From: Chryseobacterium arachidis | GTDB lineage: Bacteria > Bacteroidota > Bacteroidia > Flavobacteriales > Weeksellaceae | Length of the DNA stretch: 64,000 nucleotides | Assembly: GCF_900129245.1 (NCBI RefSeq) | Contig: NZ_FQUT01000007.1 | Location: 124,001 to 188,000 of the forward strand | Direction: 5' to 3' | In this document: in pieces, positions 44,854 through 56,727 of the stretch | Numbering within the stretch: the stretch's first letter is position 1 | How the letters are laid out: the number at the start of each line of letters is the position of its first letter | Translations under genes and position numbers: made by a program | The notes under the pieces: generated by a model | What the model saw: only the letters and a program-made list of their open reading frames with translations | Database searches by the model: none | What the model was told of the DNA's origin: nothing

Positions 44854-46818
44854 TTACATTACTTTTGCTCCGTTATATAGAACACGCCCTAAGCATTCCA
44901 TTACTATACTTTCTAACTGATCTGATGTTTCTCCGGAATTCAGCGTATTAAACTGAATGGTATCAAAGAATTTCCCTAAGGTGATGTTGATTGTTTTTTG
45001 TCCCCCACCAGAAACTGTACTTCCTGTTTCCTGGGACTTTGCGGCATTACTTCTTCTGGTATCCTCGGATCTGTTGATTGTTGGTTTTCCTCCTCCGGTA
45101 AGATCAGCTTTTGGTGGTCCTTTAGATTGCCCCAACGCTTTTACTTGTGCATCTTGAGCTTTTATTCCAGATAAAAGATCCGCATTAGCTTTAACTTCAG
45201 TAGTTTTGGTAACCTTAATCTCTTCTCCCGTTATAAGCTCTTTTGCCCATCGATAAGCACTTTCTATACCATTCAAAATAGGCATCAAAATATTATTCCA
45301 AACCCATTTTAGTCCATCTGCAACCCAGCCTACAGCCTTTAATACAATTCCTAAAATCCAGTAAACTCCTGCAAAAACATCTTTTATAAATTCACTATTA
45401 GCAATCCAGGTTACAAGTCCCGAAACAATACTCCAAACCGCATCAAAGACACCTCCTAAAGTTTCCCAAACTGTTGAAAGAAAACCTTGAGCAATTTCTA
45501 CATATCCGGACCAAGTACTTGTTCCTTCTCCTAATCCTGAAATAAATTCAACAGCCTGCCCGAGAGCATTTGCAACAATATCGATATAAGGTTGTACAGC
45601 TTGTAAAGCCGGTGCAAAACCTTCAGTAAATTTCAATCCAATATCTAAAACTTGCGAAATAATAGGAGTAAAAGCCGAACCGATCTCTGTAAGAGCTCCC
45701 ATTCCTCTTTCCTTAATATTATCCCATTTTCCTGTTACAGTATTGTTTGCTTTTTCTGTGGCACCTTCGTATAATCCTCCTTTTCCTTTAGCATCTTCAA
45801 ATGATTTTGACAAAGTAGCATAATCTACACCGCCTTTGAATTGGTCTGCGCCTTTTCCTGTAGAAGCCGACAACATTCCATAGACATCAATTCCGGATGC
45901 TTCTAACTGCTTAAGCTGATCACTGGATGCTTTTCCGCTGCTTTTAATGTCCTTCATTTGCTCAGATAACTTTGTAAGTTCAGAAGCCCCTCCTCCGGTA
46001 GCAGTAACTGCATTTGCCAAATTCATCACTTCTTCTCTTGCTTTTTGGGCATCTCCACCCACAGAAAGTAAAGCTTTATTGGCTTCTAGTAACTCTGGAA
46101 GTTGGAAAGGTGAATTCCCTGCATCGGTTGCGATATTTTTGTAGATCGCATTAGCGTCCTGCCCTTTTCCTATTACATTTGATAAGCTCAAAACATCCTG
46201 TTCCTTTTGGATACCTCCGGAAAGAGCGGCCATAGCACCATCTTTTAAAAGTCCTACAGCCATAGTGCCAATTCCTGCAAGGGGAGCGAGCATTCCTGCT
46301 AATGAGAAACCACTGCCGCCTTTTCTTGATATGTCTGCCGCGTTTTGAGTTGCGACAGAAGGATGATTGTCTGCTTGCCCTTGAAGTTCTGCCAAACGAG
46401 ATCTAAATTCTCCTATTTTACTAATATCTGTCTCTCGGTTTAAGCTCCTCTGAGTTTTTTCAATATCACTTTGGATATTCCTGTAGCTTCTCACAGATGT
46501 AGGTGGAGGAGCTGGAGCTTCTAAACTTGCTTTTACATGATCTTTAAGCTTATTATAACTCGATTTAATCGAGTCTCTAACTTTTCCATATGTCTCTTTG
46601 ATTCCGTCAAGTATGTTAAAATTTGATATTTTAGTAAAAGCACTATTTACCCTTTCCTTTATTTTACTAATGCCAGCACCAATATCATTGGTAACAGTTA
46701 CGATAGCTTTTCCTAAATCTGCTCTTGCAAAAAAAGTTCGTGCGAAACTGCTTAACTCTGACCCTAAAAAGGTATTTATAGTATCAATAAAATTTGATAA
46801 ACTAGTAAGATTGTCCAT
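44854..46818 (-). CDS. Tail tape measure protein
   Basis: 654 residues. Long helical N-terminus with repeated KERVNSAFTKISN and KVRDSIKSSYNKLKDHVK units; a hydrophobic middle (GSGFSLAGMLAPLAGIGTMAVGLLKDGAM, then AVQPYIDIVANALGQAVEFI, FLSTVWETLGGVFDAVWSIVSGLV and VYWILGIVLKAVGWVADGLKWVWNNILMPILNG in short hydrophobic runs); and a Gly/Ser-rich C-terminal tail. It runs through the tube and sets its length; at about 0.15 nm per helical residue it would allow a tail of at most about 98 nm. It starts 3 bp after the frameshifted chaperone frame. Confidence 0.88.
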   Translation of the reverse strand: MDNLTSLSNFIDTINTFLGSELSSFARTFFARADLGKAIVTVTNDIGAGISKIKERVNSAFTKISNFNILDGIKETYGKVRDSIKSSYNKLKDHVKASLEAPAPPPTSVRSYRNIQSDIEKTQRSLNRETDISKIGEFRSRLAELQGQADNHPSVATQNAADISRKGGSGFSLAGMLAPLAGIGTMAVGLLKDGAMAALSGGIQKEQDVLSLSNVIGKGQDANAIYKNIATDAGNSPFQLPELLEANKALLSVGGDAQKAREEVMNLANAVTATGGGASELTKLSEQMKDIKSSGKASSDQLKQLEASGIDVYGMLSASTGKGADQFKGGVDYATLSKSFEDAKGKGGLYEGATEKANNTVTGKWDNIKERGMGALTEIGSAFTPIISQVLDIGLKFTEGFAPALQAVQPYIDIVANALGQAVEFISGLGEGTSTWSGYVEIAQGFLSTVWETLGGVFDAVWSIVSGLVTWIANSEFIKDVFAGVYWILGIVLKAVGWVADGLKWVWNNILMPILNGIESAYRWAKELITGEEIKVTKTTEVKANADLLSGIKAQDAQVKALGQSKGPPKADLTGGGKPTINRSEDTRRSNAAKSQETGSTVSGGGQKTINITLGKFFDTIQFNTLNSGETSDQLESIVMECLGRVLYNGAKVM

Positions 46819-46821
46819 AAT

Positions 46822-47007
46822 TTAAAATTTTCTTTCGCCCTGTTTTTTCCAAATTTCCAAGGCTATTCCGGTGCGATAGAAAAATTTTTCATCACCCCAA
46901 TTCTTTAAAGCATCGGCTCCAAACTGCATACTTCCAAAAACAATCAAGAACTCTATTCCTTCGGTCTGTTTATCGGAGAAAGACCTGCTCCCGCTTTCGC
47001 TAAGCGC
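46822..47007 (-). CDS. Tail assembly chaperone, frameshifted C-terminal part (GT-like)
   Basis: 61 codons ALSESGSRSFSDKQ ... FGADALKNWGDEKFFYRT ... LEIWKKQGERKF, ending TAA at 46822. The frame is open only from 47031 and has no early start codon; the first ATG lies midway. It is +1 relative to the 47407-47000 gene, which equals a -2 slip. At 47014-47008 the upstream gene carries the slippery run TTTTTTC, just before its own stop. A weak hairpin (CGCTT-AGCGA-AAGCG) covers the stop. Mu itself makes its extended chaperone by a -2 slip. Fusion length would be about 195 residues. Confidence 0.75.
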   Translation of the reverse strand, partial: ALSESGSRSFSDKQTEGIEFLIVFGSMQFGADALKNWGDEKFFYRTGIALEIWKKQGERKF

Positions 47008-47407
47008 GAAAAAAGTCGGCCTTCTTGCTTTCTAAGATGTTATTCATCTGTAAGAATACTGCAATAAAGCAATCTTCATCCTCAATTAACTGATAATCTC
47101 CTTCGATCCAAAGCTGCTCTACAATCATGGCAACGGCTTTACTCATTCCGTTTGAGCCAATAGCTGTAAGATAATCTCCCAAATCGTCTGCTTTTGGTGG
47201 ACGGAGTACAGCAAGGAAGTCATCCACCTTCAAATAAATAAGGTCTCTGTTGCCGTACTCTTTCTTCCACTCATCCAATTTTTTTGCAGTATATCTTTCC
47301 TCAAATGGAGTAAGATCTTTTACTGTATCTTTTTTGGATTCCTTAGTTTTCTTTTCTTCCTTAGATTTTCTATTATTAAAAACCTGCTGTAACTTTTCGT
47401 TTGCCAT
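47000..47407 (-). CDS. Tail assembly chaperone, zero-frame product (G-like)
   Basis: 135 residues with a Lys-rich N-terminus (KSKEEKKTKESKKDTVKD) and a folded part from TPFEERYTAKKLDEWKKEYGNRDLIYLKVDDFLAVLRPPKADDLGDYL to ILESKKADFFRA. It lies between tube and tape measure, where the tail chaperone always lies, and is followed by the open frame in the shifted phase (46822-47007). It would coat the tape measure before tube assembly. The DFLAVLRPP and acidic context are as in chaperones of Bacteroidota phages. Confidence 0.78.
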   Translation of the reverse strand: MANEKLQQVFNNRKSKEEKKTKESKKDTVKDLTPFEERYTAKKLDEWKKEYGNRDLIYLKVDDFLAVLRPPKADDLGDYLTAIGSNGMSKAVAMIVEQLWIEGDYQLIEDEDCFIAVFLQMNNILESKKADFFRA

Positions 47408-47436: not shown

Positions 47437-47874
47437 TTATTTAAATTCTCTGTTCATTGCGATGTACGGAAGAGAAACTTCTCTGTTTTTAGCTCCCTGT
47501 TCCATTTCGAAACCATCTTCTGTAAACTGTACACCAGACATTGTAACCGTTGTTAATACGTCTGCAGGATTTTTTTTGTATGAGATAAGAATTGTAATAA
47601 ATTCATGAGGAACGTCGGTAATATCCTCAAAGCCAGCCGCTTTTGCCGCTCTGTTCAATGCATCAGCTTCAAAACCTAATACTTTGATACTCCCTTCGTA
47701 TTTTTTGTTTCCTCTCATGATATCAATAGGCTGATCTCCAGCCCCATAGATATGTTCCGATTCTACAGTTTTCTTTACAGAGAAGCCTCTAAGCCCCTTG
47801 ACAGTCTTTGATAGTACTTTTACCTCAAAATTAGACCATGCGCATTCTGATGATGTAATATTAATATTAGCCAT
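47437..47874 (-). CDS. Tail tube protein
   Basis: 145 residues, a usual tube length. Mostly beta: SECAWSNFEVKVLSKTVKGLRGFSVKKTVESEHIYGAGDQPIDIMRGNKKYEGSIKVLGFEADAL (pieces: VKGLRGFSVKKTVES, YGAGDQPIDI, RGNKKYEGSIKVLGFE) and GVQFTEDGFEMEQGAKNREVSLPYIAM. The GxxxPxxxxRGxxxYxGxI pattern and place after the sheath mark the inner-tube subunit. Only one tube gene is present, unlike eCIS clusters, which have several. Confidence 0.85.
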   Translation of the reverse strand: MANINITSSECAWSNFEVKVLSKTVKGLRGFSVKKTVESEHIYGAGDQPIDIMRGNKKYEGSIKVLGFEADALNRAAKAAGFEDITDVPHEFITILISYKKNPADVLTTVTMSGVQFTEDGFEMEQGAKNREVSLPYIAMNREFK

Positions 47875-47882
47875 GTTTTAAA

Positions 47883-49043
47883 TTAAAGTGTTTGTGTTAA
47901 TCCCATGTTCAATACAATCCAAGTCATATAGCCTAATGGCTGGATCTGAATTTGTTTTTCAAGGGTATTTGTGTTGATTAAATCTTGTTCTACAGGAACT
48001 AATACCTGCGCTCCGCTGATCTGTCCTGACATGTTTGCTAAAAGCTGAGTTCTTGTAACCTCTTCTAAGTAAGCTGCATCAGCATCATTTAGTTTTCCAT
48101 CTGCAGTCATTCTTACAGAAGATTCTAAGAATGGAGTGTCTGTAGCCGTAGAAATTCTTTGTGCTTTGTCGATCAATCTTCCATGAACCAAAGTTCTGAA
48201 GTCATCCGTTCCCGCCATTTTATCTACACTGAAATAATAACCTGCCGCACCTTCTCTTGTATGTAAGGTGATAAAACCATCATCTGTAAACTTATCTAAT
48301 TTTTCAACTAAAATTTCCTCTACTTTATCATCTCCGATATAAGCTTCTGTAATACTTAGCGCTCCGTTTTGTCCGTCTCCGATTTTTACATGAGCAGGAT
48401 ATTTACAAGCTCTTGCTAAAACCAACGCTACAGATGCAGAACCATCATTTCTTGAACCTCCAAGAACTACTCCTGCAAAAGTGTTTTCGGCAGATTTTGG
48501 TTCAAAAGAAGGAGCTACAGCAGCATCTTTTATTCTACCTTCGATTAAGAATCTTACCGGTTTGTTGATAGACTGCTGATATTGCCCTAATGCCTTTGAA
48601 GCTAATACAGCATCCTGAACATCCTTATCCAAAAATCCTGCAGGAGAAACATAGGTTGCATCTGGCTTTCTGCAAACTCCCACCAAGTTTACTCTACCGT
48701 TTGAAACATTAAGAAGTTTTTTTACTCCTTCTTCGTTCGTACTTGTAAGAGCATCCTTCATAGTCATTGTATCTTCTGTTCCTAAGATCCAAAGCTCCTG
48801 GCTGCCTCCAAGCTCCTGATAAAATTCGTTAATTGCATAAAACAAAAACGGTTCTGCCGCCTCTGTGTACCCTTTCGCTTTAGCATCTGCTGGTGAATAA
48901 ACTGTCTGTACCTTACCAATAAGATCTTCTGTATAAGCAGTTCCCACGATTCCTGCAACGCCGTCGATTACCTGAATCTGACGAAGTAAGTTGCCTGAAG
49001 CCACGTTCGCTTTTACTTTTGGTGTTCCATTTCCTTGTGACAT
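47883..49043 (-). CDS. Contractile tail sheath protein
   Basis: 386 residues, at the short end for sheaths, as in DUF2586-type Bacteroidota sheaths. Seen: DGVAGIVGTAYTEDLIGKVQTVYSPADAKAKG (start region), LGGSQELWILGTED, an alpha/beta middle with VLGGSRNDGSASVALVLARACKYPAHVKIGDGQNGAL (short pieces GGSRNDGSASVALVLARA), and the C-terminal domain GYYFSVDKMAGTDDFRTLVHGRLIDKAQRI (DDFRTLVHGRLIDKAQRI is the typical 'R..D' helix) with VPVEQDLINTNTLEKQIQIQPLGYMTWIVLNMGL. It forms the contracting outer layer. First structural gene after the lysis pair; no head gene precedes it. Confidence 0.87.
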   Translation of the reverse strand: MSQGNGTPKVKANVASGNLLRQIQVIDGVAGIVGTAYTEDLIGKVQTVYSPADAKAKGYTEAAEPFLFYAINEFYQELGGSQELWILGTEDTMTMKDALTSTNEEGVKKLLNVSNGRVNLVGVCRKPDATYVSPAGFLDKDVQDAVLASKALGQYQQSINKPVRFLIEGRIKDAAVAPSFEPKSAENTFAGVVLGGSRNDGSASVALVLARACKYPAHVKIGDGQNGALSITEAYIGDDKVEEILVEKLDKFTDDGFITLHTREGAAGYYFSVDKMAGTDDFRTLVHGRLIDKAQRISTATDTPFLESSVRMTADGKLNDADAAYLEEVTRTQLLANMSGQISGAQVLVPVEQDLINTNTLEKQIQIQPLGYMTWIVLNMGLTQTL

Positions 49044-49126: not shown

Positions 49127-49645
49127 TTAAACAATCCTTTTCCATCTTATAATAAGAACAAGAGTGAACAAGGCGAGTAATGCGAGAAAGATTCTTCCGA
49201 GCCATAATTGTGTTTGCTGAAACCATGACAAAGGCTGCGCTTTGTATATCGGCTTTTCAATGTAAATTGGTGTTTGCTCGTGTTCTTTGGTGTACGTTTC
49301 CCGCCATGTTTTGAAAGACTCTTGTGCCTTTTTGTAGCATTCTACCGATAGTTTTCCGTCGACAATCGAAACTTTCGGTGCCAATAAACTCATTTCAGAT
49401 TTATAAGCTTTCGTTCTAAAATTTTCATTCATTTCAGAGTTTAAAACAGGTTTTCCGTTTACACATTCTATAAATGCATTGTAATAGGTACTATCTGCTT
49501 CGATCTTGAAAATCGTGTCTTTAACAATTGTAAAAACTTCTTTCGTTTTCTCGATGGTCACCGGTTCCGAAGGCTTCCTATGTATGCAGGAAACCTGAAC
49601 CAGCGAAACAAAAAATAGCGATATGAAGAAAATAAATTGTTTCAT
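49127..49645 (-). CDS. Spanin-like protein: lipobox N-terminus and C-terminal membrane helix (u-spanin layout)
   Basis: 172 residues. Signal peptide with a lipobox-like VQVSC (Cys20) at the N-terminus, a periplasmic part of about 125 residues, and one C-terminal transmembrane helix (about 148-166, WLGRIFLALLALFTLVLII) followed by RWKRIV. A protein lipid-anchored in the outer membrane and held by a C-terminal inner-membrane helix is the unimolecular spanin design known from phage T1. It lies 1 bp after the endolysin gene, the place of spanins. Position -3 of the lipobox is Gln, which is unusual, so the lipid anchor is likely but not sure. Confidence 0.65.
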   Translation of the reverse strand: MKQFIFFISLFFVSLVQVSCIHRKPSEPVTIEKTKEVFTIVKDTIFKIEADSTYYNAFIECVNGKPVLNSEMNENFRTKAYKSEMSLLAPKVSIVDGKLSVECYKKAQESFKTWRETYTKEHEQTPIYIEKPIYKAQPLSWFQQTQLWLGRIFLALLALFTLVLIIRWKRIV

Positions 49646-49646
49646 T

Positions 49647-50105
49647 TTAATATTTTATATAACCTTTAATAGATGTTAAGGCTCTTTTTCTACGGCAAAC
49701 CTCGATACCTTCTCGGCTTCCGTTATCGTTCGTATTTCCTTCCACTGTGTAGATATATTGAGCATCAAATTTTTCTACAAAACCTGTATGACCAAGACCT
49801 TTTCCAAAATCCATGATGAATACAGATCCCACAGAAGGTTTTAAAGATTTCTTTTCCTTAGGAGCATTATTCCAAGCGTATAGAACACCGCCCGTTTTAA
49901 TGGCTGTATTGGTAATCTTATTTTGTTTTGAAGCTTCATTAAAACACCAATACACAAAAGCCATACACCAGCTTGCCGGAAAGTTGATTCCTACAGATGC
50001 CAAATAATTTTTAACAGGAATTCCCCAATTTGAACCGTGAGGTTTCTCCTCCTGTCCTATTTGAGTAATTGCTACTTGTAATGCCGTTGCAGATAGTGAA
50101 TCCAT
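49647..50105 (-). CDS. CHAP-domain endolysin
   Basis: 152 residues from the ATG at 50105; longer in-frame starts would reach into the promoter region and add a Cys-rich stretch with no domain. It has the CHAP/NlpC fold order: Cys47 in ASWCMAFVYWCF, His106 in GLGHTGFVE, and Asn/Glu in VEGNTNDNGS (122-126). Such enzymes cut amide bonds in peptidoglycan. No signal peptide, so release to the periplasm would need a holin or an alternative path. First gene of the late operon, followed by the spanin gene and the sheath. Confidence 0.82.
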   Translation of the reverse strand: MDSLSATALQVAITQIGQEEKPHGSNWGIPVKNYLASVGINFPASWCMAFVYWCFNEASKQNKITNTAIKTGGVLYAWNNAPKEKKSLKPSVGSVFIMDFGKGLGHTGFVEKFDAQYIYTVEGNTNDNGSREGIEVCRRKRALTSIKGYIKY

Positions 50106-50334
50106 ATTAATATTTAATTGTTGTGTTTGTTTTGTGAGTACAAATTTCCAGAATCCCACAACGGTTTGAAAATAACAGCGCAAGGATTGCACACCTTTTT
50201 TAAAATGCCCTCTTTTAAGCTCAATTTTGTATCATGAAATAGTGTATAGTATAAATGGGAAGTAATAGTAAGCCTGTTTTTAATAAGAGCTATTCAGAAA
50301 CAGAAAGTAATTTGAGAAACTATATTTAATACTT
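50106..50334. promoter_or_regulatory. Divergent late control region
   Basis: 229 bp between the minus-strand endolysin and the plus-strand tail-terminator-like gene. On the minus strand GAAATTTG (50141-50148) resembles a -7 box (5 of 6 fixed positions), with TTTTCAAACC and GGTGTGCAATCCTTGCGCTG upstream as possible activator-binding sequence. No Mor/C-type activator gene is recognised in the element. Which promoter serves which gene is inferred. Confidence 0.4.
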
Positions 50335-53107: not shown

Positions 53108-53734
53108 TTATTGATTTTCTGTGATTGTTCCCCAATAGAGGTTTGCTTTTTCTTCGTTGATATTTAATGTTCCGCCCGGGCATCTTCCTGAAATAATGGC
53201 TCGTAAACCTTCCGCCTGGACAATAATTTTTGATAATTTTCGCCAGACCGTCCCTAGGGCACTGTCTGGAAGCCCCTTTTCTTCGTGGCTTACGAAAATG
53301 ATAAGTTTATTTTTATGCTTCTCTTTAAGCTCGAGTACCATTTTTCTTGTAATTTCGTCACGGTAAACAGTAGTATTGTCGATAAATATGATTTTAGGAC
53401 ACTTTCTGGATTCAAATTTTTGCACCAGCTCCTCCCAAGGCATATAGTCCAGAAGCTTAAAGTTTTTTTCGGTATCAGAAAGTCCGGCGAACACCATTGC
53501 TGAAATGATATCTTTTGAGAAACCTTCTTCTGCAGATACATACAATACTTTTCCGAAAGAAGCAAGATACTTTGCAAGCATCATGGCAAAAGTTGTCTTC
53601 CCATTTTTTTCAGCACCTCCTAAATACCAAAATCCTGTTGTTTCAGGTTGCCCGAAGGCTTTAAGCCATAAATCTTTAAATTCAAACTGTTTAAAGACAA
53701 TTGATAGTGCTTGTTTTACTGATATTGATTTCAT
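53108..53734 (-). CDS. P-loop ATPase of the early operon
   Basis: 208 residues with Walker A GGAEKNGKTT (39-48, Lys46) and a Walker B KIIFIDN (about 119-125), a RecA/KaiC-like layout with VLYVSAEEGF and KLIIFVSHEEKG. The start overlaps the MuB-like stop as ATGA, so translation is coupled. A second ATPase after MuB is usual in Bacteroidota Mu-like elements; it might help target capture or replication, but its role is not known. Confidence 0.68.
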   Translation of the reverse strand: MKSISVKQALSIVFKQFEFKDLWLKAFGQPETTGFWYLGGAEKNGKTTFAMMLAKYLASFGKVLYVSAEEGFSKDIISAMVFAGLSDTEKNFKLLDYMPWEELVQKFESRKCPKIIFIDNTTVYRDEITRKMVLELKEKHKNKLIIFVSHEEKGLPDSALGTVWRKLSKIIVQAEGLRAIISGRCPGGTLNINEEKANLYWGTITENQ

Positions 53735-54657
53735 GATTTATTAATATTAACTAAGGTTTTCAGATATCTCAATGATTTTATTTTTCCGTCTTCATATCCT
53801 TTTTTTATCTTATACTGAGAGTCTACTCTTACCATACAGCTTCTAATAACTTCATTGATAGAAGATTTATCTTCAAGGTTAACATACGCTACATCGCCAA
53901 TTAATTTGGTATAAAACTTTTTACGGTCTTCCGTACCTTTTGGTACCAATGTGACAAAATCATCTGAAAAGCGGCTGAATATTTCTGCAAAGCCTACTTT
54001 ATGATTATTGATCCCCTTCGTAATTTTTGCCCTTAAACCGTCTGCTCCAATCATAAACCAAGCACAACTGTCGACTGTATCATTCATTATTCCCTTCAGT
54101 TCCAGATAGGCACTATACTCTAAATCTCCTGCCTCATCGATGCATATAAAAGGATTTTCAAGGATATTTAAAGCGTATTTAACATTTTCAAGAACCTCAT
54201 GATATTTTCCTTTTGTATCACAACCTAAAACCAATGCAATTTGTTTGATGAATCTTACCTTCGTGTGCGTTTGTGAAGCATCCACATAAAAAGCATTTTT
54301 CATTTGTGAAATAATGGCTTTTGCACATTCGGTTTTTCCTATTCCACAGTCATCCACAAGAATCATGGAACTTTTGGTTTTCTGACAAAACATAAAGCTT
54401 TCATACATTTGATCATACACTTCAGTTCTCGCAAATTTCCAATCGTTTTTATTGATATTTACCTGAAATTTTTTTCCTATTCCAAGCCATTCGCCAGCGG
54501 ATAATACTTTTTCTGTTTCGCCTTTTTTTATTCTGCTGTATATTGAGCTGCTTATATTTAATTTTTTTGCAAAAGCAGCATCAGAACCTCCGAAATTTTT
54601 CCGGCCATTGAGCATCGCTTCGCGGATTTGTTGTTTTAATTCTTTATTGATTTCCAT
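53731..54657 (-). CDS. MuB-like AAA+ target-capture ATPase
   Basis: 308 residues, as for MuB (312). An N-terminal helix-turn-helix (about 20-50, GGSDAAFAKKLNISSSIYSRIKKG) precedes the AAA+ core with Walker A VDDCGIGKT (101-109, first Gly replaced by Asp) and Walker B FICIDEAGD (170-178). Sensor and C-terminal helices follow. MuB binds target DNA as a filament, directs insertion away from its own element and activates MuA. Follows the transposase by 15 bp. Loss of the first P-loop Gly is common in variant P-loops but should be noted. Confidence 0.85.
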   Translation of the reverse strand: MEINKELKQQIREAMLNGRKNFGGSDAAFAKKLNISSSIYSRIKKGETEKVLSAGEWLGIGKKFQVNINKNDWKFARTEVYDQMYESFMFCQKTKSSMILVDDCGIGKTECAKAIISQMKNAFYVDASQTHTKVRFIKQIALVLGCDTKGKYHEVLENVKYALNILENPFICIDEAGDLEYSAYLELKGIMNDTVDSCAWFMIGADGLRAKITKGINNHKVGFAEIFSRFSDDFVTLVPKGTEDRKKFYTKLIGDVAYVNLEDKSSINEVIRSCMVRVDSQYKIKKGYEDGKIKSLRYLKTLVNINKS

Positions 54658-54672
54658 ATTTTTTTTATTTGG

Positions 54673-56727
54673 TTATTTAAAATTCGATTTCCAGCTTCTT
54701 GCTGTTCCTTCTATTTTTTCGTAATTGTATTCCGGATTTTCTTCGAAAAAAATCTCCTGAGGAATAGATTCTGTTTGGTTGTACCGTTTTCTACCAGAAA
54801 TCTGAAATTTATTGTTAAGTGTTTTTTTACGATGATCGATAATCGTGATCTGTTCTATTTCTCTTTTTTGTTGTGCCATAAAAGAATTCACCGTGTTTTC
54901 ATAGGCCGACATTAGCTTTCTATTAATCTCACCTTGTTCGCTTCTCTCATGTCTTGATTTCGAATATTCTGGATGAGGAACCAAATCGCAAAGCATCATA
55001 TCATCATAATAAATCATTGCCTTTAATGTTTCTCCATTATTTCCGTCTAGCCAGAAAATTCTAAACTCTTTTCCTTCTACATATCTCATTAGCCTTATTA
55101 ATTCTTCACCCAAAACAAGCTCTCCATCTAATCCCAGTACATAAGTTGTATTTCTAAAATTGATGATTCCCGCTTTACAGCTTGATATTGTTTCTTTTCC
55201 CAGATATGGTAAAAATGCACTCCAATTGGTCGGCTGAGTATTTTTGTTTTGCATTTCGCAAAAAACTTCCCAACGAGTTTTATCTGTATAGACCGAATGA
55301 GGCGAATTGTTCCATGTTTCAATATCATTCAAAGAATTATCTACAATGTCATCATAAGGAATAAAAACCTCATCTTCAGCACTTTTTTGGTTTTCCTCTT
55401 TTCTTGCGTGTGGTCTTGCCATCCATCCAAGCCTGCTTTTTTCATGTCTATACCTAAGTTCTTCAAACTTTCTTTCGATTGCTTTTGATCTTGCTCGGTT
55501 GGCATAAATATTCACATTGTCGAACATAGCTCCGTTTCGTAAAAAAGTATCTTTAAAACTACTGTTTAATGAGCTCTCACATTCTAAACCTAAAGGAAGA
55601 TTAAATCCCCATTCCGAATAATTCCTTATCATTTGGCGATAAAACTCTTTGATGATTCCTTCCTTTGTTTTTCCGTGAACCCAGCAGGTCCAAGCTTCCG
55701 AACCAAGATCAATCCCCATATAAAACCAAACCCTATTCCTATTTTTATCGTACATAAAGGGAGGTTGTCTGTCATCAATAGAAATAAGCGTTCCTGCTTC
55801 CTTAATTTTTGTCAGTTTATGCCAAGGAATAAATTCTTGCATTAACTTCTGTCTGTCTCCGGATCTTTTTGCATAAGTCCCAATTCTATTTTCCCATTTT
55901 CCGAGCCAAGCAATAATGGAACTTTCTGATATCTCCTTGAATTTTACCTGATCTTTATAATTGTATACTTCTCCTGTATCGTGTGAAATGATTTCCAATT
56001 CTCCATTTAAAAAAGCTTTGTACTGATTGGCAACCTGGGTTTTGGATGGTTTGTATTCTTGGCCAGCAAAAATATCATTCAGTAACGAAACCATTTCATC
56101 TGTCATTAATTTTCTGTTTTGATTTTTTAACTTCCCAGAGATAAGACTATTATAATTATATCCGTGTTCAAACGTATTAAAATAAGGTTTCCAGATCCTG
56201 TCAAATGCCCTGTAAGAAGAAGGTATCGTATGACTTACATTAAAAAGCTTTGGTAAATATTCATTAAAAGTTACAATATCAGTACAGATTGATGGCAGTA
56301 AGCCTCTTCCTGATGATTTCTTTAACTTTTTCCATTCTTCAAGACGTGCGATTCTTAATCTTTCTGCAGCTAAAAGCACACTTGCATTTACTATATATTC
56401 TTGTTTAAAATTCTCCTTTAAAGGTGTTCCATCTTCAAATCTAAAATCTGTAAAATATCTTACTGCTGAAGGATCAAACTGAAAAAAGGAAATCATAGGA
56501 TGCTGCATTTTTCTGGGATCTCCAATACTGTCTTGCATTTCTTTTGGTAGCGAATCGAAATCTATCAACATTTGACGCCCATTACCACCTTTTCTAACCT
56601 GCTTTATACCAAATGGAACATTTCTATATCTTTGAATTTTCTTTTGTAAAGAATCTAAAGTGTTAAAATAGGCAGGTATAAGCTCGTCTTTGGTTACTAC
56701 CAATATATTTCCCCACTGAAATGGCAT
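54673..56727 (-). CDS. MuA-like DDE transposase
   Basis: 684 residues, as for MuA (663). A DNA-binding start (PFQWGNILVVTKDELIPAYF; FNTLDSLQKKIQRYRNVPFGIKQVRKGG) is followed by the RNase-H core: first acid Asp318 (LISIDDRQPPF), second site at 381-387 (LECESSL; Glu382 or Glu384 where MuA has Asp336), and Glu418 in SKAIERKFEELRYRHE, the counterpart of MuA Glu392. A beta-barrel and C-terminal basic region follow. It would cut and join the element ends. A Glu at the second place makes this D-E-E by eye and needs alignment to settle. Confidence 0.9.
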   Translation of the reverse strand: MPFQWGNILVVTKDELIPAYFNTLDSLQKKIQRYRNVPFGIKQVRKGGNGRQMLIDFDSLPKEMQDSIGDPRKMQHPMISFFQFDPSAVRYFTDFRFEDGTPLKENFKQEYIVNASVLLAAERLRIARLEEWKKLKKSSGRGLLPSICTDIVTFNEYLPKLFNVSHTIPSSYRAFDRIWKPYFNTFEHGYNYNSLISGKLKNQNRKLMTDEMVSLLNDIFAGQEYKPSKTQVANQYKAFLNGELEIISHDTGEVYNYKDQVKFKEISESSIIAWLGKWENRIGTYAKRSGDRQKLMQEFIPWHKLTKIKEAGTLISIDDRQPPFMYDKNRNRVWFYMGIDLGSEAWTCWVHGKTKEGIIKEFYRQMIRNYSEWGFNLPLGLECESSLNSSFKDTFLRNGAMFDNVNIYANRARSKAIERKFEELRYRHEKSRLGWMARPHARKEENQKSAEDEVFIPYDDIVDNSLNDIETWNNSPHSVYTDKTRWEVFCEMQNKNTQPTNWSAFLPYLGKETISSCKAGIINFRNTTYVLGLDGELVLGEELIRLMRYVEGKEFRIFWLDGNNGETLKAMIYYDDMMLCDLVPHPEYSKSRHERSEQGEINRKLMSAYENTVNSFMAQQKREIEQITIIDHRKKTLNNKFQISGRKRYNQTESIPQEIFFEENPEYNYEKIEGTARSWKSNFK

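Follow-up and report, generated by a model that had tools for sequence, protein, structure and literature searches.

Between the tail tube and tape measure genes of a prophage in Chryseobacterium arachidis, a reading frame coding for a well-formed C-terminus lies open behind a complete gene and has no start codon of its own, which raises two questions: whether the two frames are joined by ribosomal frameshifting and, if so, whether the ribosome moves one base forward or two bases back. The DNA analyzed here, referred to as the window, is the 64,000-nucleotide stretch from positions 124,001 to 188,000 of contig NZ_FQUT01000007.1 (assembly GCF_900129245.1), and all coordinates below are positions within it. 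From the sequence we predict, with good confidence, that in this Mu-like Chryseobacterium prophage with a contractile tail the gene pair uses a programmed +1 frameshift to yield a short and a long tail assembly chaperone. The genes concerned are the following.

47883..49043, minus strand: tail sheath (DUF2586), 386 aa; PHROG tail sheath E 8e-15, Pfam DUF2586 E 1e-25
47437..47874, minus strand: tail tube, 145 aa, assigned by position together with a tail PHROG
47407..47000, minus strand: ORF1, predicted short tail assembly chaperone, 135 aa; stop TAG at 47002-47000
46822..47007, minus strand: ORF2, predicted C-terminal extension of 61 residues (ALSESG...ERKF) in the +1/−2 phase; stop TAA at 46824-46822
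44854..46818, minus strand: tape measure, 654 aa; PHROG tail length tape measure E 4.5e-13

The minus-strand module runs in the order sheath, tube, ORF1, second frame, tape measure, and baseplate genes, so that ORF1 occupies the place of a G/GT-type chaperone, downstream of the tube and upstream of the tape measure. Against Pfam, the tape measure matches TMP_3 at E 6e-10, slightly below the cut-off. The tube has two PHROG matches, the better one to PHROG 9206 (“major head protein”, E 4e-18) and the other to PHROG 4579 (“tail protein”, E 5e-9). A transposase (PHROG 310, E 8.5e-35) is found together with an AAA ATPase at 56727..53731, and the element is therefore assigned to the Mu-like transposable prophages. 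Just upstream of the sheath, at 49127-50192 on the minus strand, lie a CHAP-domain gene of lysis type and then one for a 172-aa protein that is hydrophobic over a stretch at its N-terminus.

The identity of ORF1 as a chaperone rests mainly on this gene order, which is a stronger argument than any fold match. ORF1 falls into PHROG 19076, a family of unknown function, at E 6e-14; neither ORF1 nor ORF2 matched a Pfam family above the cut-off, ORF2 had no PHROG match at E 0.001, and a PDB sequence search with the profile returned 0 matches. An AlphaFold2 model of ORF1, built from a 42-row alignment (A7), reached pLDDT 81.3 and pTM 0.67. Foldseek with this model found no match at E <= 0.001 in PDB or BFVD, and tail assembly chaperone is the name of 8 among the best 50 BFVD matches listed, none of them at E <= 0.001. 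With VIA-align against PDB, the top row is 3fgx_A (Z 8.0, 88 aligned, rmsd 3.4 Å) and the second, a weak one, is the HK97 tail assembly chaperone 2ob9_B (Z 3.7, 76 aligned, rmsd 4.1 Å). A weak resemblance of the model to known chaperones is thus suggestive.

On the minus strand, ORF1 ends with GAC TTT TTT CGC GCT TAG. The second frame is open from 47031 to 46825 and closes at 46824..46822, in the +1/−2 phase relative to ORF1, and the tape measure ATG at 46818 follows its stop after a gap of 3 bp. A preliminary description of this DNA had given the TTT TTT CGC GCT TAG end, the start-less frame from 47031 with its 61-residue C-terminus, and the 3-bp spacing before the tape measure ATG, all of which proved exact. 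Its reading of the phase change as −2 or +1, and not −1, was likewise confirmed: the −1 frame in the window closes 47 nt beyond the ORF1 stop. The bases at issue are the following.

47006..47011, minus strand: candidate shift site UUU_CGC, with P-site TTT at 47011-47009 and A-site CGC at 47008-47006
47012..47014, minus strand: codon preceding the shift codon (E site), TTT in the window

A +1 move at this site would re-pair tRNA-Phe on TTC (47010-47008), and reading would resume with GCG at 47007.

Searches for ORF1 and ORF2 covered species genomes and viral contigs. Of 320 genomes of the family, 36 had a match to ORF1, and ORF2 was matched in 5 of 395 genomes of the order and 3 of 395 genomes of the class. 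Two of these three class-level matches (L116 and L117) are weak, carry internal stops, and come without ORF1; they were excluded from all counts. Plasmids gave no match to ORF1 and phages none to ORF2; ORF1 matched a single phage record, the unannotated MT835775, which is of the −1 type described below. ORF1 is present in 115 of 117 loci, accompanied by ORF2 in the +1/−2 phase in 101, while in 14 the ORF2 profile was not found. Many of the 101 loci are repeats of one place, and they reduce to 42 distinct junctions including the window, or 28 clusters at 90% ORF1 identity. Some counts below are made on 43 rows, which include L086, a duplicate of L076 truncated where its contig ends; the distinct number is 42. 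In one relative (L023/L049/L201; G314:C12, about 172040), ORF1 seems to switch frame near its N-terminus, with the expected start in another frame; a pseudogene, an assembly error, or a different start are options for what is described here.

All 42 distinct junctions, which come from separate assemblies, have the second frame in the +1/−2 phase, and the ORF2 frame is under purifying selection. Pooled over 43 rows, its pS is 0.74 and its pN 0.22, whereas two control frames show the reverse order (pS 0.27 and 0.23, pN 0.32 and 0.33); the median pairwise dN/dS is 0.17, from the 295 of 903 pairs with pS in the usable range. Homopolymer runs are prone to sequencing error, and the preliminary description had considered that an error in the T run might be what separates the frames. 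The phase shared among the distinct junctions and the purifying selection on both sides of the junction rule this out, and with it a decayed gene, a reading to which we attach next to no probability. That ORF2 might instead be an independently started gene coupled to the end of ORF1 is a little less improbable, if still very much so. ORF2 does begin where ORF1 ends, coupling is frequent in phages, and there is a conserved internal ATG, which encodes the Met of FGSMQFG; yet strong conservation (GIEFLIVFG) extends upstream of that ATG, and in 40 of 43 rows the first 20 ORF2 codons, counted from the slip site, contain no ATG, GTG, or TTG (in 3 rows the third codon is GTG), for which reason an independent start was rejected. 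Such a start would also leave the invariant TTT_CGY unexplained. The earlier proposal that a frameshift extends the tail chaperone is supported by the conserved phase, and a programmed frameshift at the ORF1/ORF2 junction is very probable.

The direction of the shift can be approached through the bases that each kind of re-pairing needs. In all 42 distinct junctions the P-site codon is TTT, followed by CGC (39) or CGT (3), so that every junction has the UUU_Y arrangement of a P-site UUU before a pyrimidine, always as UUU_C, and the +1 target is UUC in every row. The preceding codon is TTT in 32 junctions, TAC in 9, and TTC in 1; TAC TTT CGC accounts for 5 of the 28 clusters. On the ORF1 tree, within its 29 +1 rows, this preceding codon changed at least 4 times and the shift codon never. 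Every one of the 43 rows has the ORF2 frame open over 29 nt or more ahead of the ORF1 stop, and each zero-frame codon of this shared overlap was scored for tRNA re-pairing one base forward or two bases back. Only the TTT at −9 allows +1 re-pairing in 43 of 43 rows. Re-pairing by −2 is not possible at any single codon throughout; the highest count, 32 of 43, is again that of the TTT at −9.

Other slip sites were considered and rejected. Lys codons of an upstream A-run allow +1 re-pairing in at most 33 of 43 rows and −2 in 19, and in the window this run reads AAG AAG GCC, which permits neither. A classical −1 heptamer of the form X_XXY_YYZ was discarded as well, given that the conserved frame is the +1/−2 one and that across the 43 rows the −1 frame closes 4 to 30 codons beyond the ORF1 stop. 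A second potential +1 site, UUU_UAG, is seen in L078, L079, L080, L083, L084, and L085, which read TAC TTT CGC TTT TAG; the codon before the ORF1 stop is thus TTT in 6 of the 9 TAC junctions. That codon is GCT in L074, L076, and L081 and GGC in L113, so that, among the junctions that have lost −2 pairing, only these have no second +1 site nearby.

The preliminary description had preferred a −2 slip “as in Mu” and listed +1 as the alternative; it is the alternative that is now favored. In a −2 slip, tRNA-Phe would move back two bases within TTTTTT and an extra Phe would precede ALSES. Such pairing is physically possible on the TTTTTTC of the window and in 32 of the 42 distinct junctions, and Mu, a phage of the same lifestyle, has a chaperone record that carries the note “verified −2 translational frameshift” and a site, CGG GGG CGA, with the same layout of a homotriplet before CGN. 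In the remaining 10 junctions, however, phase and C-terminus are the same while a −2 move would put tRNA-Phe on ACU (9) or UCU (1), neither of which it can read. Furthermore, what +1 needs, the TTT and the C that follows it, is invariant, whereas the codon that −2 needs is the one that kept changing. The Mu chaperone also has no significant sequence match to this family: the best match of a profile search of the Mu stretch (AF083977 22500-27500) is the gp41 frame at E 1.6. Because −2 pairing is lost in these junctions while +1 yields UUC everywhere, +1 at UUU_CGY is most likely the mechanism of the family and, by parsimony, of the window, and a −2 slip is unlikely. Slippage of RNA polymerase on the T run, which would join the frames in mRNAs with one U fewer or two more, could draw on the same T6, present in 32 of 42 junctions including that of the window, but six T is short for efficient polymerase slippage and the other 10 junctions keep the phase with TACTTTC or TTCTTTC, that is, with three T only; we regard it as very improbable. 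These junctions also bear on the T6C that had been put forward as the slip element. With T6 in only 32 of 42, T6C is not invariant among relatives; the invariant element is TTT_CG followed by C or T, which is kept in 42 of 42 together with the second frame.

Codon choice at the shift site is narrower than elsewhere in ORF1. Over 43 rows, the shift columns have TTT/TTC at 43/0 and CGC/CGT at 40/3, while the other conserved Phe columns of ORF1 have TTT/TTC at 37/4, 20/20, and 11/32, and between four and six Arg codons occur in each of three further conserved Arg columns. Host usage was sampled from 298 mechanical ORFs (113,746 codons) in 30 stretches (L118-L147) of the same genome outside the window. 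In this sample CGC is the second-rarest sense codon, at 1.43 per 1000, and TTT_CGC was observed 0 times against 5.7 expected, TTT_CGT 6 times against 17.4. TTT before AGA is also under-used (26 observed, 75 expected), and the avoidance of TTT_CGC is therefore not specific to CGC. Before CGC, CGT, and AGA together, the sample has 32 TTT and 125 TTC, though TTT makes up 65% of its Phe codons. One gene for tRNA-Arg(ACG) was found in the stretches scanned. The rarity of CGC may be a by-product, because in most rows CGC is part of the new frame's overlapping codon GCN (Ala), which is GTG (Val) in 3; the codon may thus be kept by the overlapping +1 frame instead of for pausing. Excerpts of PMC3498833 voice the same caution about the CGU of PA-X.

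A weak hairpin after the slip site, reported in the preliminary description, did not hold up. Applied to 30 sequences over 130 columns, beginning 15 nt ahead of the ORF1 stop region, RNAalifold found zero conserved pairs, and the hairpin stretch of the window has z = −0.22, with 75 of 200 shuffles folding at least as well; a stimulatory hairpin is therefore not supported. The first stem of the window hairpin uses four T of the slip run itself. By eye, a Shine-Dalgarno-like candidate can be picked out as AAAGGNGAG in some rows and AAAGCNGA in others.

In the mechanism that we propose, most ribosomes would end at TAG and give the 135-aa short form. In some ribosomes, peptidyl-tRNA-Phe (anticodon GAA) would sit on UUU with the rare CGC waiting in the A site, a wait that may act as a pause. 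A move of one base forward would let tRNA-Phe re-pair perfectly on UUC, and reading would resume with GCG CUU AGC and onward, adding the 61-residue C-terminus to give a 194-residue long form. We infer that the shift occurs, as well as its size in this phage and its rate. If the two proteins work as lambda G and GT do, coating the tape measure would fall to the short form and recruiting tube subunits to the long form.

The +1 arrangement is one of two found among relatives of ORF1. A further 20 distinct distant homologues match the ORF1 profile and have their extension in the −1 frame. In 14 of them a zero-phase X_XXY_YYZ heptamer is present (A_AAA_AAG in 11, T_TTT_TTG in 2, A_AAT_TTT in 1), and 6 are without a strict heptamer. 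The 13 of the 20 that were used in the tree share 21-31% identity with the window ORF1, and a single branch with support 100/99 splits 29 +1 rows from these 13 −1 rows in an unrooted tree that includes one very long branch (L207). Having no root, this tree shows one change between two groups and is compatible with either order of −1 and +1. Between the +1 and −1 extensions, hhalign detected no homology (probability 0.1%). An isolated phage, Flavobacterium phage fF4 (Winoviridae; MN850656 23388-23920, L211), has the −1 site CAG GGA AAG (G_GGA_AAG), and in its record each of the two frames is entered as a hypothetical protein of its own. Some −1 relatives (L025, L027, L030, L034, L035, and L037) have a longer ORF1, its frame measuring about 185 to 208 aa; between the matched stretch and the slip site A_AAA_AAG lies additional sequence, perhaps a second copy of the domain. 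On balance, we favor the view that a clade of transposable prophages in Flavobacteriales makes its long chaperone by an unaided +1 slip at UUU_CGY, with the same P- and A-site codons as PA-X, and that the direction has switched between −1 and +1 within the family while the extension came to differ too, which would make frameshift direction an evolvable trait.

Shifts with a net +1 phase are usually ambiguous between +1 and −2, and natural relatives without −2 pairing supply a test. If the proposal is true, the site would work with neither a stop codon beside the slip nor a conserved RNA structure, and the UUU-pyrimidine error site known from test constructs would have a natural, conserved, programmed use in bacteria. 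The family would be a direct system in which to follow how frameshift direction changes while both chaperone forms stay balanced. For annotation, second frames such as ORF2 are easily missed or called separate genes, as in phage fF4.

A +1 shift in a tail chaperone is of an already known kind. According to excerpts of PMC5009743, shifts of −1, −2, and +1 all occur in this gene among tailed phages, Mu using −2 and HSTV-2 very likely +1; the excerpts also describe UUU_Ynn as especially +1-prone in bacteria. Lambda-type G/GT and the −1 homologues resemble the present locus in that a pair of overlapping frames, the second start-less, separates tube from tape measure. Both differ from it in shifting by −1; the −1 homologues of this family do so mostly at a heptamer and have an extension without detectable homology. 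Mu is likewise a transposable phage with the same gene place, the same net phase, and a homotriplet codon before CGN, but its shift is recorded as −2, a pairing lost here in the junctions described above. In excerpts of PMC3498833, Mu, with a rate of about 2.2%, is described as the sole −2 case known from nature. The Mu site itself (L212, AF083977 22500-27500, 1455-1475) allows +1 pairing, from GGG to GGC, besides −2, and the analogy in layout therefore cuts both ways.

Shifts by +1 in tailed phages, as excerpts of PMC3498833, PMC5009743, and PMC10885494 report them, include Tsh of Listeria phages and SPP1, the HSTV-2 chaperone, and SEA-PHAGES annotations. The gene is the one considered here in HSTV-2 and, as PRFect frames them, in many SEA-PHAGES cases, whereas the Listeria site is CCC_UGA and lies in the tail shaft gene. 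For the SEA-PHAGES data, PRFect counts 350 forward and 2368 backward positive candidate cases, with codons not named in the excerpts of PMC10885494. UUU_CGY in a tail chaperone was not found in the open-access literature searched, as far as its excerpts extend, and within that literature three things appear to be new: UUU_CGY in this gene, natural mutants by which +1 can be told from −2, and a change of direction inside one family. In E. coli, the UUU-CGU and UUU-CGG pairs reportedly served Schwartz and Curran in 1997 as a test case for +1 slippage. The leaky UUU_Y sites of E. coli are errors or test constructs, in contrast to the conserved use at this junction.

The closest likeness in codons is influenza A PA-X, for which excerpts of PMC3498833 describe a +1 shift at UCC_UUU_CGU with slippage on UUU_C before CGU. 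In both cases, as far as those excerpts go, tRNA-Phe in the P site passes from UUU to UUC, a low-use CGY Arg codon stands in the A site, and no stem-loop is involved. PA-X differs in being made by eukaryotic ribosomes from an unrelated gene, with UCC in the E site and not UUU, UAC, or UUC as here. The likeness is one of convergence, not of kinship, and if the +1 mechanism is true, UUU-CGY would be a solution common to a bacterial virus and influenza virus.
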